Below, piece by piece: positions 12,766 to 17,871 of a stretch of DNA of 56,389 nt. The notes under the pieces are model-generated. The model saw only the letters and a program-made list of their open reading frames with translations, was not told the DNA's origin and did no database searches. Source of the stretch: Acidimicrobiales bacterium (GTDB taxonomy: Bacteria > Actinomycetota > Acidimicrobiia > Acidimicrobiales > MedAcidi-G1); the NCBI GenBank assembly GCA_014239855.1, contig JAAZXY010000010.1:1-56389 (forward strand), given 5' to 3'. Within the stretch, counting starts at the first letter, position 1, and each line of letters starts with the position of its first letter. The position numbers and the translations under genes are program-made.

Positions 12766-13104
12766 TCAGCCGACCTCGGCGAGTGCGGCGGCGGCCCGGC
12801 GGGCGGCCACCTGGCGACGACCGATGATCGGCGTGGTGGGGGCGAATCCCGCGGTGGCCCGCTCAGCCTCCGACTCGCCGCCCCAGAAGCCGAGTTCCCG
12901 GTTGTCACGTGCGTGCTGCTTGCAGGAGTCCATGGCCGGGCATGCGGCGCAGAGTTGGGCGGCACGGGCCTCACGGCGTACGCGGGCCTCGGGACGCTCG
13001 GCGAAGGGAGCGAAGAACAGGTCGCTCTTGCCTCGGCAGAGGACGTCGTCCACCCACCGCATCTCCTGTGAGTCGACGTACAGGTTCGCCGCTGCATCTG
13101 ACAT
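12766..13104 (-). CDS. WhiB-family iron-sulfur transcription regulator
   Basis: A 112-residue WhiB-like protein. It has the four cluster cysteines of the family: one in DDVLCRGKS (near residue 23) and three in LCAACPAMDSC (CxxCxxxxxC). The G[V/I/F]WGG turn follows as GFWGGES. WhiB proteins hold a [4Fe-4S] cluster, bind the primary sigma factor and act as redox- or NO-sensitive regulators. They occur only in actinobacteria and their phages, so this gene also supports the lineage. A strong ribosome site (CGGAGGGAG) precedes the ATG. Which WhiB subfamily it belongs to is not clear. Confidence 0.93.
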   Translation of the reverse strand: MSDAAANLYVDSQEMRWVDDVLCRGKSDLFFAPFAERPEARVRREARAAQLCAACPAMDSCKQHARDNRELGFWGGESEAERATAGFAPTTPIIGRRQVAARRAAAALAEVG

Positions 13105-13478: not shown

Positions 13479-14507
13479 GTGCAGGATCAGGCCCCCGAGA
13501 ACCCACCCCCCAGCAACCGCGACGGCCCGTACTTCGATGAACTGTCCGTGGGGCAGGTCCTCGACCCGGCCCCGGCGGTCACCATCGGCTCCGGGGAGGC
13601 CGCCGCCTACCAGGCCATCTGCGGCGACCCGCTGGCCCTGCCGCTGAGCCGGCCGCTGGCCGAGGCCGTCACCGGCCACCCGGGCGCCCTCGTCAATCCG
13701 GCACTGGTGCTCCACGTGTCCATCGGGCAGAGCACGGTGGCCACCCGCACGGTCATCGCCAACCTCTTCTACCGCGGGGTGGCCCTTCGCCGGCCGGTCC
13801 GCCAAGGCGAGACCCTGCAGAGCACGGTCACCATTCGGGGCCTACGCGAGCTGTCACGCAGGGATGACCGGCCGGCCCGGGGGCTGGCCCTGCTCGGCAT
13901 CCGGACCATCTGCCTCGACGACGGCGCCGAGGTGGCCGACTACGAGCGGTGCGCCATGCTCCGGTTCCGCAACCCCGACGCGGTGACCGGCCATGACGAC
14001 GACCTCGGCGGGGTCGACACCGACATCGACCTGGCCGCCTGGACCGATCTGGTACCCGACAGCTGGGACCCCGCCCCGCTGAGAGCCGCCGCGGCGACCA
14101 CGCCGACCTGGACCCGCGGCGACCCGGTCACCGACCCCATGCGGGACACGGTCACCAATGCGCCCGAGCTGGCCCGTCTCACCCAGAACCTGGCCCCGGT
14201 ACACCGCGATCCGTCGCTCGGCCCCGGCGGTCGACGGCTGGTCTACGGCGGTCACACCATCGGCCTGGCCCAGGCCTCGATGAACCGGCTGCTCCCCGAC
14301 ACGGCCACCGTCCTGGGTTGGCAGTCGTGCGACCATCCGGCACCGGTGTTCGAGGACGACGTGCTGTCGTTCCGGCACACGTTGCTCGACGAACTCCCGT
14401 CCAACGGCGGGCGCCTCCGGGCGCTGCAGACCCAGGTCGACGCCCAACGGGCCGACGGATCCACCGACACCGTCCTGGACTGGCGACTGGTGAGCTGGGG
14501 CGCCTAG
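13479..14507 (+). CDS. meh: MaoC/FAS1-like dehydratase, resembles mesaconyl-C4-CoA hydratase
   Basis: A 342-residue double hot-dog hydratase. The second half has LTQNLAPVHRD in the place of the hydratase-2 motif, followed by GGRRLVYGGHTIGLAQ. It resembles mesaconyl-C4-CoA hydratase (Meh) of the 3-hydroxypropionate bicycle, which makes citramalyl-CoA; the QN...VH...GRRLIYGGH stretch is the main similarity. The neighbouring convergent gene resembles Mct, the enzyme acting just before Meh, and this strengthens the call. The stop codons overlap by 2 bp. Other FAS1-like dehydratases of this size also exist, so a different acyl-CoA substrate is possible. The start is GTG with a leaderless-type hexamer. 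Confidence 0.7.
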   Translation: MQDQAPENPPPSNRDGPYFDELSVGQVLDPAPAVTIGSGEAAAYQAICGDPLALPLSRPLAEAVTGHPGALVNPALVLHVSIGQSTVATRTVIANLFYRGVALRRPVRQGETLQSTVTIRGLRELSRRDDRPARGLALLGIRTICLDDGAEVADYERCAMLRFRNPDAVTGHDDDLGGVDTDIDLAAWTDLVPDSWDPAPLRAAAATTPTWTRGDPVTDPMRDTVTNAPELARLTQNLAPVHRDPSLGPGGRRLVYGGHTIGLAQASMNRLLPDTATVLGWQSCDHPAPVFEDDVLSFRHTLLDELPSNGGRLRALQTQVDAQRADGSTDTVLDWRLVSWGA

Positions 14508-15733
14508 CCCAGAGCCACTGCTCCCCGGTCCACCAGGGCGCCGAGTTCAGCGCCCGTGAGACCCAACTCGCCGGTCAGGATCTGCTCGGAATGCTCGCCC
14601 AACCGCGGCGCCACCATGGCACCACGGTCCACGGCGTCGGGTCCACCGAAGGCCAGCGGCGACCCGGGCACGAGGTGGCGCCCCACCCCGGGCTGGTCCA
14701 GATCGGCGAACAGCGGGTTGGCCGTCGAGGCCCGCGGATCCTCGGCCACCAGTTCGGCCACCGTCCGGTACGGACCCCAGCACACCCCGTGCTCGTCCAG
14801 CGAGGTCGCCACCTCGGCCAACGTCCGGCTGGCGAACCACGGCTCGAACAGGGCGCACAACTGGTCGGTGGCCAGATAGCGCTCGCTCTCGTCGGCCAGA
14901 TCGACCCCCAGGTCCCCGGCCAGCGCGGCCACCGCGTCGGCGGTACCGGTGGCGGCCTGGAGGCCCGCCCACTGCTTGGCGGTGATGGCCACCACCATGG
15001 CCCGACGATCGTCGCCCGTCACGAAGTCCCGGCCGAAGGCCCCGTAGATGGCGTTGCCCACCCGGTCGCGTTCGGTGCCGTTGACCTGGGCCTCGGCCAG
15101 GTTCCCGAGGGCGCCCACGGTGGCCAACGCCACATCGGCCAGGGCAATGGTGACCAGGCCTCCGCCGCCGCCCAGCAGGCGCCGTCGGTCGGCAGCCAGC
15201 AACCCGGTGGCCGCCATCTGCCCGCACACCAGGTCCCACGCCGGCACGACGTTGTTGACCGGTCGGGGGTCGTCGGCGTGACCGGTGATGCCCGGATAGC
15301 CCACCGCACAGTTGACCGTGTAGTCCAACGCCGTCGTGCCGTCGTGGCTACCGGTGACCACCACCATGACCAGGTCGACGTGGCCCAGTTCCCGGGCCCT
15401 CGTGGTCAGGCGCTCGGGGTCCATCCAGCCCCGGGCCGGGAAGTTGGTCAGGAAGTTCCCCGCCCCGGCGATGAGCTCGGTCAGCAGTTCGGTGACCTCG
15501 CCGTCCCGGAGGTCCACGGCCAACGACCGCTTCCCCTTGTTCAGCCCGTTCCAGTAGAGGCTCACCCCGTCAGCGGTGAGTGGCCAACGACGGTGGTCGA
15601 TGCCGCCACCGATCTGATCAAAACGGATGACGTCGGCACCCAACTGGGCCAGTGTCATACCACCGGAAGGCGCGGCCACGAAGGCCGTCCCCTCCACGAC
15701 CCGCAGGCCGGCCAGCGGCCCGGAGGCGGTCAT
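14504..15733 (-). CDS. mct: Family III CoA-transferase, Mct-like (2-methylfumaryl-CoA isomerase)
   Basis: A 409-residue family III CoA-transferase. It keeps the N-terminal signature I associate with mesaconyl-CoA C1-C4 CoA transferase: VVEGTAFVAAPSGGMTLAQL, then IGGGIDHRRWPLT, SLYWNGLNKGKRS, NFPARGW, and later PAWDLVCGQMAATGLLAA. Asp137 in ALDYTVN is the probable catalytic residue. Mct moves CoA from C1 to C4 of mesaconate within one molecule. The match is stronger here than for generic CaiB proteins such as the one at 3947. It lies 23 bp downstream of the peroxiredoxin gene on the same strand and is convergent with the Meh-like gene. Confidence 0.8.
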   Translation of the reverse strand: MTASGPLAGLRVVEGTAFVAAPSGGMTLAQLGADVIRFDQIGGGIDHRRWPLTADGVSLYWNGLNKGKRSLAVDLRDGEVTELLTELIAGAGNFLTNFPARGWMDPERLTTRARELGHVDLVMVVVTGSHDGTTALDYTVNCAVGYPGITGHADDPRPVNNVVPAWDLVCGQMAATGLLAADRRRLLGGGGGLVTIALADVALATVGALGNLAEAQVNGTERDRVGNAIYGAFGRDFVTGDDRRAMVVAITAKQWAGLQAATGTADAVAALAGDLGVDLADESERYLATDQLCALFEPWFASRTLAEVATSLDEHGVCWGPYRTVAELVAEDPRASTANPLFADLDQPGVGRHLVPGSPLAFGGPDAVDRGAMVAPRLGEHSEQILTGELGLTGAELGALVDRGAVALG

Positions 15734-15756
15734 CGGATCACGCCATCAGAAGTGCG

Positions 15757-16209
15757 TCAGGAACGGGCCCGGATGTCGTCGAGCACCGCCTGAGCGTGTG
15801 CCTCGAGGTCCTGACCGGCCAGGTCATAGGTGGCCGCGATGGTGCCCTCGGGGTCGATCAGGTAGGTGATGCGGCGCGGATAGCCCTTCTCGGGCTGGTC
15901 GGCCTCGTAGGCCTGCCCCATCACCTTGTCGGTGTCGGCCAGCAGCCGGTAGGGAAAGCCCTGGTCGTCGGCGAAGTGCTTCTGCGCCTCGACGGTGTCG
16001 AAGCTGGCGCCCACGATGATGGCGCCGGCCTCACTGAACTCCGGGGTTCGGTCACGGAACCCCCCGCCCTGGATCGTTCAACCAGGGGTGGAGGCGACCG
16101 GGTACCACCACAGGGCCACCCAGTGGCCACGGAGGCTGTCCAGCGTGACCACCTCACCGTCCTGGTCGGGCGCCGAGAAGTCCGGCGCCTTCGTTCCCAC
16201 ATCCAACAT
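15757..16209 (-). CDS. Selenocysteine-containing peroxiredoxin (Bcp/AhpC-TSA type)
   Basis: Read with TGA at 16078-16080 as selenocysteine, this gives a 150-residue thiol/selenol peroxidase. The catalytic loop is WWYPVASTPG-Sec-TIQGGGFRDR, where the family has TPGCT..xGFRD, so Sec44 stands exactly at the peroxidatic cysteine. The frame is uninterrupted otherwise. It has the N-terminal APDFSAPDQDG and a C-terminal thioredoxin fold including TYLIDPEGTIAATYD. No cysteine occurs anywhere, so Sec44 is the only redox chalcogen and the resolving Cys is absent (Gly at +5). A SECIS-like hairpin follows the TGA. The start at 16209 has a GGAGGACG ribosome site. A truncated pseudogene is the alternative, but the hairpin and the intact downstream frame argue against it. 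Confidence 0.85.
16043..16063 (-). promoter_or_regulatory. Bacterial SECIS-like hairpin after the in-frame TGA
   Basis: On the minus strand GGGGTTC (16063-16057) pairs perfectly with GAACCCC (16049-16043) around a 7-nt loop CGTGACC. The loop begins 21 nt after the TGA and has G as its second base. Both features fit the published bacterial SECIS rules (loop 16-37 nt after UGA, a G among the first two loop bases), under which SelB inserts selenocysteine. Confidence 0.75.
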
Positions 16210-16239
16210 GTGTCGTCCTCCGCTGATCGCTACCTGATG

Positions 16240-16245
16240 ATTATG
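16240..16245 (-). promoter_or_regulatory. -10 element CATAAT for the peroxiredoxin
   Basis: CATAAT on the minus strand, 30 nt before the peroxiredoxin ATG, would give a 5' UTR of about 23 nt holding the GGAGGACG ribosome site. It suggests the peroxiredoxin (and perhaps the Mct-like gene) is transcribed separately from the upstream aldehyde dehydrogenase. No clear -35 was found. Confidence 0.4.
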
Positions 16246-16287
16246 GACGGTGGGCGGCGCCGAGCACGACACCGGTCGCCAGCCGCG

Positions 16288-17760
16288 TCAGGCCAGCCAG
16301 GAGATGGACTGCATTTCGCTGTAGGCCTCGAGTCCGGCGATGCCGCGGTCGCGGCCGATGCCCGACCGCTTGAAGCCGCCGAACGGGGCATCAGGATGGG
16401 GGACCACGCTGTTGAGTGCCACGTTCCCGGTCTGGATCTGCTGGGCGATCCGCAGGGCCCGGGCGTTGTCGCCGCTGTAGACGTAGCTGTACAGCCCGTA
16501 GTCCGAGTCGTTGGCCAGGGCCACCGCCTCGTCGTCACCGTCGTGTGCCAGGACGACGACGACCGGACCGAAGGCCTCCTCCCGCACGGCGTGCATGTCG
16601 GCCGTGCAGTCGGCCAGCAACGTGGGAGCCACGAAGTAACCGGGCAGGTCGGGTCGCTCGCCGCCGCACACCAACGTGGCGCCGGCGTCGACGCCTCCCC
16701 GGATGAAGGCTTCGACGCTGTCGCGCTGCGCTTCGCTGACCAGCGGGCCGACCAGCGTGTCGCGCTCGGTGGCGTCGCCCACCTTGAGCATCCCGGCCAC
16801 CGCTCCCAGCGTGGAGACCAGTTCGTCGACCTTGCTGCGGTGGCAGATCACCCGGGTGGGTGCCGTGCAGATCTGTCCACTGTGAAAGCCCCACACGCTG
16901 GCGATGGCTCCCACGGCCTTGCCCACGTCCGCGTCGTCGGTCATCACCATGGCGCCCTTGCCGCCCAGTTCCATGAGCACCCGGGTCATGGACGGCGCAC
17001 CGTCGGCCATGATGCGCGCCCCCACCGATGACGATCCGGTGAAGCTCACCATCTGCACGTCGGGCGACGAGATGAGGGCCGCCGGGGCCTCGGTGCCCGC
17101 CGAGGTCAGGATGTTGACCACACCCGGTGGGAAGCCCGCCTCGACCACGGCCTCACCGAGGCGCAGGACGGCCAGGGGGTCCTGGGGAGCGGGCTTGATG
17201 ATGCAGGTGTTGCCCATGGCCAGCGCCGGGGCCAGCTTGCCGGCCACGTTGACCAGCGGGAAGTTGTACGAGGTGATGCAGGCCACCACGCCGACCGGGC
17301 GCCGGTACACCGCGGCGCCCACCAGGCCGGCCGGGCCGAGGGCCGAGGCCGCCTGGGTGACCGGCATCTCGGCACGGTCGAGGTTGCGGGGAATGGCGTA
17401 CTGGCCGTAGCGGTCAGCCAGATTGGGGCCGACCTGCATGGTCTCGGCCACGTTGATGGTGGCCCCCGTCTCGGCCTGGACCAGTGCCGACCAGGTCGGG
17501 GCTTCCCGACGCAACACGTCGGCCAGACGCTGGAGCATGGCGCCCCGTTCGGCCGGCGACGTGGCCGCCCACCCGGGGAGTGCGGCCTTGGCCGCCGCGA
17601 TGGCCGCCTCGGCATCGGCCACCGTGGCGTCGGGAGCGTGACCCACCACGTTGGTGGTGTTGGGGTCGATGATCTCGTAGGTGGACGCGGTGGCCGTCCA
17701 CTCGCCGCCGATGAGGAGGCGCCACTGTTCCTGGGGGTCGATGGTCCTGACGTCACCCAT
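16288..17760 (-). CDS. NAD(P)-dependent aldehyde dehydrogenase
   Basis: A 490-residue ALDH-superfamily enzyme oxidising an aldehyde to a carboxylate. The catalytic Glu lies in LMELGGKGAMV and the nucleophilic Cys in HSGQICTAPTRV. The cofactor loop FTGSSSVGARI and C-terminal PFGGFKRSGIGR are standard. It resembles the benzaldehyde/vanillin and betaine-aldehyde-like group, but no substrate can be named. The ATG at 17760 follows GGGAGGCC, and an upstream in-frame ATG at 17853 is ignored because it adds residues outside the fold. It is divergent from the amidohydrolase, with three inverted repeats between them. Confidence 0.93.
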   Translation of the reverse strand: MGDVRTIDPQEQWRLLIGGEWTATASTYEIIDPNTTNVVGHAPDATVADAEAAIAAAKAALPGWAATSPAERGAMLQRLADVLRREAPTWSALVQAETGATINVAETMQVGPNLADRYGQYAIPRNLDRAEMPVTQAASALGPAGLVGAAVYRRPVGVVACITSYNFPLVNVAGKLAPALAMGNTCIIKPAPQDPLAVLRLGEAVVEAGFPPGVVNILTSAGTEAPAALISSPDVQMVSFTGSSSVGARIMADGAPSMTRVLMELGGKGAMVMTDDADVGKAVGAIASVWGFHSGQICTAPTRVICHRSKVDELVSTLGAVAGMLKVGDATERDTLVGPLVSEAQRDSVEAFIRGGVDAGATLVCGGERPDLPGYFVAPTLLADCTADMHAVREEAFGPVVVVLAHDGDDEAVALANDSDYGLYSYVYSGDNARALRIAQQIQTGNVALNSVVPHPDAPFGGFKRSGIGRDRGIAGLEAYSEMQSISWLA

Positions 17761-17777
17761 GGGTGCTGGCCTCCCGA

Positions 17778-17791
17778 AATCGGTTCCGATT
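17778..17791. promoter_or_regulatory. Inverted repeat AATCGG-tt-CCGATT
   Basis: A perfect 6-bp palindrome with a 2-nt centre, 18 bp upstream of the aldehyde dehydrogenase start. Candidate operator. Confidence 0.45.
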
Positions 17792-17795
17792 GATT

Positions 17796-17810
17796 CTGAC
17801 GGTCCGTCAG
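17796..17810. promoter_or_regulatory. Inverted repeat CTGACGG-t-CCGTCAG
   Basis: A perfect 7-bp palindrome around one base. Its form is typical of TetR-family operators. It lies between the divergent aldehyde dehydrogenase and amidohydrolase genes. Confidence 0.5.
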
Positions 17811-17839
17811 GTCGTCTGGCCATCGTACCGATGGGCCCC

Positions 17840-17871
17840 GTGAGGTCCCTCACCGGCCTGCTGACTACGGT
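17840..17871 (+). promoter_or_regulatory. Inverted repeat and -10 element for the amidohydrolase gene
   Basis: GTGAGG-tc-CCTCAC (17840-17853) precedes a TACGGT hexamer (17866-17871) that lies 8 nt before the ATG at 17880. The repeat covers the region where a -35 or an activator site would be expected. The transcript is expected to be leaderless. Confidence 0.4.

Follow-up and report, generated by a model that had tools for sequence, protein, structure and literature searches.

Peroxiredoxins of the AhpC-TSA family that carry selenocysteine (Sec) in a TxxU motif have been recorded in several surveys, comprising 43 Sargasso Sea sequences (PMC1088965), 253 GOS sequences (PMC2398784) and 91 sequences in 78 organisms (PMC5029168), and they are also covered in a further paper (PMC13188914). 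The available passages of these publications mention neither Acidimicrobiia nor members devoid of Cys. Within a partial literature collection, the titles and abstract openings found for Acidimicrobi in combination with selenoproteins or selenocysteine contained nothing pointing to such a peroxiredoxin, and no Sec term occurred among the matches listed for Acidimicrobiia genera with Sec terms.

Likewise Sec-containing is the peroxiredoxin PrxU (NF040737), a name linked to Eubacterium acidaminophilum and a paper of 2001. Among enzymes with Cys at the catalytic position, two groups are relevant here, namely the PrxQ/BCP enzymes and AhpE of Mycobacterium tuberculosis, the latter titled a 1-Cys peroxiredoxin.

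Here, we describe a peroxiredoxin gene from a draft genome of an Acidimicrobiales bacterium, in which UGA codon 44 is almost certainly read as Sec and is neither a product of decay nor a sequencing error. The protein has both AhpC-TSA membership (PF00578/COG1225) and the TxxU motif in common with the recognised family of TxxU-type Sec peroxiredoxins; the gene is therefore a further member of a kind already known.

Results

A peroxiredoxin gene with an in-frame TGA at the peroxidatic position

The window, by which we mean the whole stretch of 56,389 nucleotides that was analysed, comes from a 2.35-Mb draft genome (G000) that is 83% complete. The features of the locus are as follows:

15757..16209, minus strand: coding sequence of the putative Sec peroxiredoxin, 150 residues plus TGA stop (ORF reading; Pfam AhpC-TSA)
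16078..16080, minus strand: TGA in frame at codon 44, the peroxidatic site, almost certainly read as selenocysteine (ORF reading; codon in relatives)
15757..15759, minus strand: terminal TGA, the stop of the peroxiredoxin gene (ORF reading)
16216..16221, minus strand: likely ribosome-binding site GGAGGA, ending 6 nt before the ATG (by eye)
16043..16063, minus strand: predicted bacterial SECIS hairpin with a 7-bp stem and the 7-nt loop CGUGACC at 16056-16050 (folding, orthologue comparison)

A mechanical ORF list splits this gene into two pieces. The initial annotation had joined them in the same frame across the TGA, and the joined sequence indeed forms one 150-residue reading with a single in-frame TGA, at codon 44. 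Around that codon the translation (15760-16209, minus strand, TGA as Sec) reads WWYPVASTPG-U-TIQGGGFRDR. The TGA had been placed at the peroxidatic Cys of a TPGCT-type motif, and it aligns with the peroxidatic Cys of solved PrxQ enzymes. The initial annotation saw the conserved fold continue in the downstream piece. The protein matches Pfam AhpC-TSA at 114.3 bits (cut-off 26), and not one Cys is present in the 150-residue translation, as had been noted. The active-site pattern PxxxTxxC/U is represented by Pro37, Thr41 and U44, together with Arg113. Thr41 is kept in all 96 Sec genes assembled below and Pro37 in 95 of them, while Arg113 is invariant in both alignments (22 and 78 rows).

The structure model (pLDDT 95.4) finds its best PDB matches among PrxQ/BCP and AhpE structures, with TMq values of 0.82-0.93. 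AhpE (1xxu, 4x0x, 5id2) shares the fold (TMq 0.88-0.93, rmsd 1.5-2.7) and the logic of a single redox centre, such that the protein, with one redox residue in this fold, falls with the AhpE-like 1-Cys type; AhpE has Cys, however, where the window's protein would have Sec, and the two are 29-30% identical. The PrxQ/BCP enzymes (5iiz, 5epf, NF006960) are the best neighbours in sequence and fold, but Cys84, the resolving Cys of Xanthomonas PrxQ, aligns with Ala80, which sets the protein apart from the 2-Cys type, and its score against NF006960 is 86.4 bits where the cut-off is 140. The PrxU equivalog model gives 49.4 bits against a cut-off of 270, and none of the ten NCBIfam models that match the full protein does so above its own cut-off. 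The protein is very likely a peroxide-destroying enzyme with Sec as its sole redox residue.

Genes for a family III CoA transferase and an aldehyde dehydrogenase flank the peroxiredoxin (window 14504-17853, minus strand). Of 98 loci, 24 have an aldehyde dehydrogenase upstream and 21 have a CoA transferase on the downstream side, and the neighbour-gene clusters listed for these loci include no redox partner; the largest cluster is an artefact, consisting of the downstream part of the peroxiredoxin itself. A WhiB-type transcription factor (Pfam 45.9 bits) is encoded at 12766-13104 of the window, also on the minus strand.

Selenocysteine machinery in the genome and in the class

The initial annotation had held that a genome lacking selB and selC would point to a nonsense mutation or sequencing error. 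The draft carries tRNA-Sec, selA, selB and selD. A tRNA-Sec gene at C67:77914-78005 scores 67.5 bits (cut-off 47) and is called SeC (tca) by ARAGORN. On the same contig, C67, selA (388.7 bits, cut-off 267.9) and selB (265.6 bits, cut-off 242.25, with beta-barrel and SelB-wing_3 domains) adjoin each other, and selD (C111:72317-73237, L018; 356.2 bits, cut-off 125) has an in-frame TGA of its own in the motif HGAGUGCKL. Among 14 control genomes, matches over the cut-off numbered five for tRNA-Sec, two each for selB and selD and one for selA; loose matches to tRNA-Sec, selB and selD occurred in all 14, and to selA in four. The tRNA-Sec cut-off by itself is thus unspecific, since it was passed in five of the 14 controls and by a second sequence in the window's own genome (48.6 bits) that ARAGORN identifies as tRNA-Ser; it is the agreement of the two programs that supports selC.

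At the level of the class, selA exceeds its cut-off in 200 of 296 genomes, contrary to the earlier remark that selenoproteins are uncommon in actinomycetes. Of the 22 genomes that have the TGA form of the peroxiredoxin, 21 are among those listed with a selA match, the exception (G188) being 79% complete. G190, a genome in one contig with a Cys form, is absent from the listed selA matches. In both genomes of the named TGC loci, and also in G265, which has a Ser form, selA was found; the disappearance of Sec from the peroxiredoxin is therefore not a simple consequence of losing the Sec trait.

Codon 44 in relatives and selection past the TGA

A search of the class found peroxiredoxin matches in 254 of 296 genomes. 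In the best 30 loci, the window's own included, codon 44 is TGA in 22, TGC or TGT in seven and TCA in one. Among named genomes, a scan yielded 295 confirmed relatives; in the best 80 of these the codon is TGA in 78 and TGC in two. Four of the 80 named loci duplicate class loci, which leaves 96 Sec genes, all distinct. The five nearest named relatives, at 77-81% identity, bear the title Acidimicrobiales or Acidimicrobiaceae, in line with an acidimicrobial actinobacterium as the most likely host. Compared with these five (L050-L054), the part downstream of the TGA shows dN of 0.149-0.198 and dS of 0.531-1.176, and the part upstream dN of 0.037-0.141 and dS of 0.565-1.073; the region downstream of the TGA is under purifying selection. 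The orthologue comparison called for in the initial annotation therefore finds relatives that are not all TGC and flanks that are not decayed.

In a tree of 65 loci chosen from 110, six Cys homologues are set apart at 100/100 from a group made up of the Sec genes, the TGC forms L121, L125 and L043, and L040, which has Ser. L121 and a Sec gene are sisters at 100/99, whereas L040, L043 and L042 form long branches whose placement is unsure. L121 (3001-3462, plus strand) encodes Cys (TGC), still has a 7-bp hairpin at +21 and has selA in its genome; it probably changed from Sec to Cys recently and keeps its SECIS as a relic. L040 (1492-1950, minus strand), on its long branch, has Ser at the peroxidatic position, lacks the +21 hairpin and comes from a genome with selA. 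The Sec peroxiredoxins L104, L111 and L119, from MAGs titled Deltaproteobacteria, are nested among actinobacterial genes, a placement that may reflect transfer or a binning mix-up.

Absence of Cys is usual in this clade, with none in 68 of the 96 Sec genes and one or two in the other 28, so that a one-Sec enzyme with no resolving Cys is not the rarity it had been taken for. The commonest extra Cys lies 19 residues after Sec (14 of 96 genes); at +36, where PrxQ has its resolving Cys, a Cys occurs in L128 alone.

A hairpin at fixed distance from the TGA

The hairpin pairs 16063-16057 with 16049-16043 over 7 bp, and its loop has G as the second base and U as the third. The earlier description of a 7-bp stem, a 7-nt loop and a G at the second loop position stands, with one correction: it had the hairpin starting 21 nt after the TGA, where in fact the loop begins, the stem beginning at 14 nt. 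Folded alone, the 21 nt have an MFE of -10.5 kcal/mol and a z of -2.09 (4 of 200 shuffles as good); the 44-nt stretch that holds them is no more stable than shuffled sequence (z 0.07, with 94 of 200 shuffles as good). When the window's gene was synonymously reshuffled, 1.5% of draws had a stem of 7 bp or longer in this position, and 6.7% had one of 6 bp or longer. Taken alone, the hairpin of this one gene is modest evidence.

In 92 of the 96 distinct Sec genes, the window's included, a loop exactly at +21 closes a stem of 6 bp or more, against 11.0 expected under synonymous shuffling, although these genes are related and do not amount to 96 independent events. When every hairpin of 6 bp or more with a G among its first two loop bases is counted, 93 of the 96 genes have one, against 23.3 expected. 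The 92 hairpin genes contain 30 distinct stems, and the exchanges CG/GC, UA/CG/UG and GC/AU/CG are compensatory; the 92 rows of the pairing count had been selected because their stems reach 6 bp or more, and full pairing of the six loop-proximal pairs therefore holds by construction. A single-register pair count over 22 sequences gave 74.0% and 80.5% of cells paired in two registers, neither clearly higher, and is blurred because the loops are 5 to 7 nt long; the variable-loop count was used instead. Codon 52 is CGU in 94 of the 96 Sec genes, though CGG and CGC are the commoner Arg codons there.

Four of the 96 Sec genes depart from the usual +21 hairpin. In L041 the stem seems bulged, as judged by eye, and in L104, L111 and L119 a hairpin with a GUU triloop at +17 was the best that could be found. 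Among ten non-Sec homologues, only L121 has kept the +21 hairpin.

The published bSECIS model specifies, in the part of the source available, a loop of 3-9 nt, a stem of 4-16 bp, G in the first two loop positions, a spacing of 16-37 nt and an MFE of -7.5 or lower (PMC13188914). The window's hairpin satisfies each of these constraints (loop of 7 nt, stem of 7 bp, G second in the loop, spacing of 21 nt, -10.5 kcal/mol). Of the Sec genes, 95 of 96 conform to the geometry, and 84 of 96 to the energy limit over the stretch folded. Six of the ten non-Sec homologues conform to the geometry too, and for this reason it was rejected as a discriminator on its own. An Rfam scan of the window returned no family at gathering thresholds.

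Discussion

The Sec reading of codon 44 is supported by the ORF, the machinery genes, the conservation of the TGA, the hairpin and the catalytic residues, selection downstream of the TGA and the predicted fold, and from these we infer that Sec is inserted. Three other explanations of the codon deserve consideration. It might be a nonsense mutation in a decaying Cys peroxiredoxin, arisen by a TGC-to-TGA change; Cys homologues do exist, with TGC or TGT in seven of the best 30 class loci and TGC in two of the best 80 named relatives. Yet 96 distinct genes have TGA at this same codon, the sequence 3' of it is under purifying selection and the hairpin is conserved, all of which renders decay very improbable. 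An error of sequencing or assembly in a single draft would be conceivable for a genome that is 83% complete and in 144 contigs, but it is still harder to credit when the same TGA appears in 78 of 80 loci from separately named records. Finally, the continuation of the frame past the UGA would also fit its being read as some other residue, through a reassigned code or near-cognate readthrough. Against this stand the Sec machinery, the hairpin at fixed spacing and the Cys aligned with this position in solved homologues; moreover, UGA is the terminal stop in 54 of the 96 genes, including the window's, and TGA has therefore not simply been reassigned. Such a reading thus has as little chance as decay.

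With codon 44 read as Sec, a catalytic cycle can be proposed. In a peroxiredoxin with a PrxQ/AhpE-like fold, SelB and tRNA-Sec, guided by the downstream hairpin, would decode UGA 44; the selenolate, held by Pro37, Thr41 and Arg113, would attack H2O2 or an organic hydroperoxide and become a selenenic acid; an external thiol would then resolve the selenenic acid to a mixed selenenyl sulfide, which a redoxin would reduce. In Cys-free members an external thiol would be needed, there being no Cys in the chain, and a cycle of the 1-Cys type, here 1-Sec, with an external thiol resolving the selenenic acid is likely.

A candidate reductant is mycothiol acting with a mycoredoxin-like protein. The window's genome contains an MshA-like gene (397.7 bits, cut-off 462.5), an MshC-like fragment (301.7 bits as MshC against 235.4 as cysS, below the MshC cut-off) and a mycoredoxin-like gene (80.3 bits, cut-off 89.5), all under their cut-offs, which makes mycothiol plausible and no more; we propose it tentatively as the reductant of this enzyme. 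Broadening this to the mostly acidimicrobial clade, with Sec at the only redox residue in its many Cys-free members, as mycothiol-dependent selenoperoxidases working through a selenenyl sulfide is a rather doubtful step. Alternatively, the protein may well be a selenoprotein in which thioredoxin or some other protein thiol, rather than mycothiol, resolves the oxidised Sec, a prospect only a little short of even. The PrxQ of Corynebacterium glutamicum is, by its title, thioredoxin-dependent (PMC5811025), and the same description is attached to the three NCBIfam models closest to the protein, all of which score below their cut-offs; on the other side, Ala80 occupies the place of the PrxQ resolving Cys, and AhpE fits about equally well.

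Gene callers that stop at UGA end or split the gene, and a probable peroxide-defence enzyme of these uncultured actinobacteria is thus easily missed. Within the clade, moreover, Sec, Cys and Ser forms make up a natural series, which includes L121, a Cys form still with its hairpin, and is useful for asking when and why Sec gets replaced.
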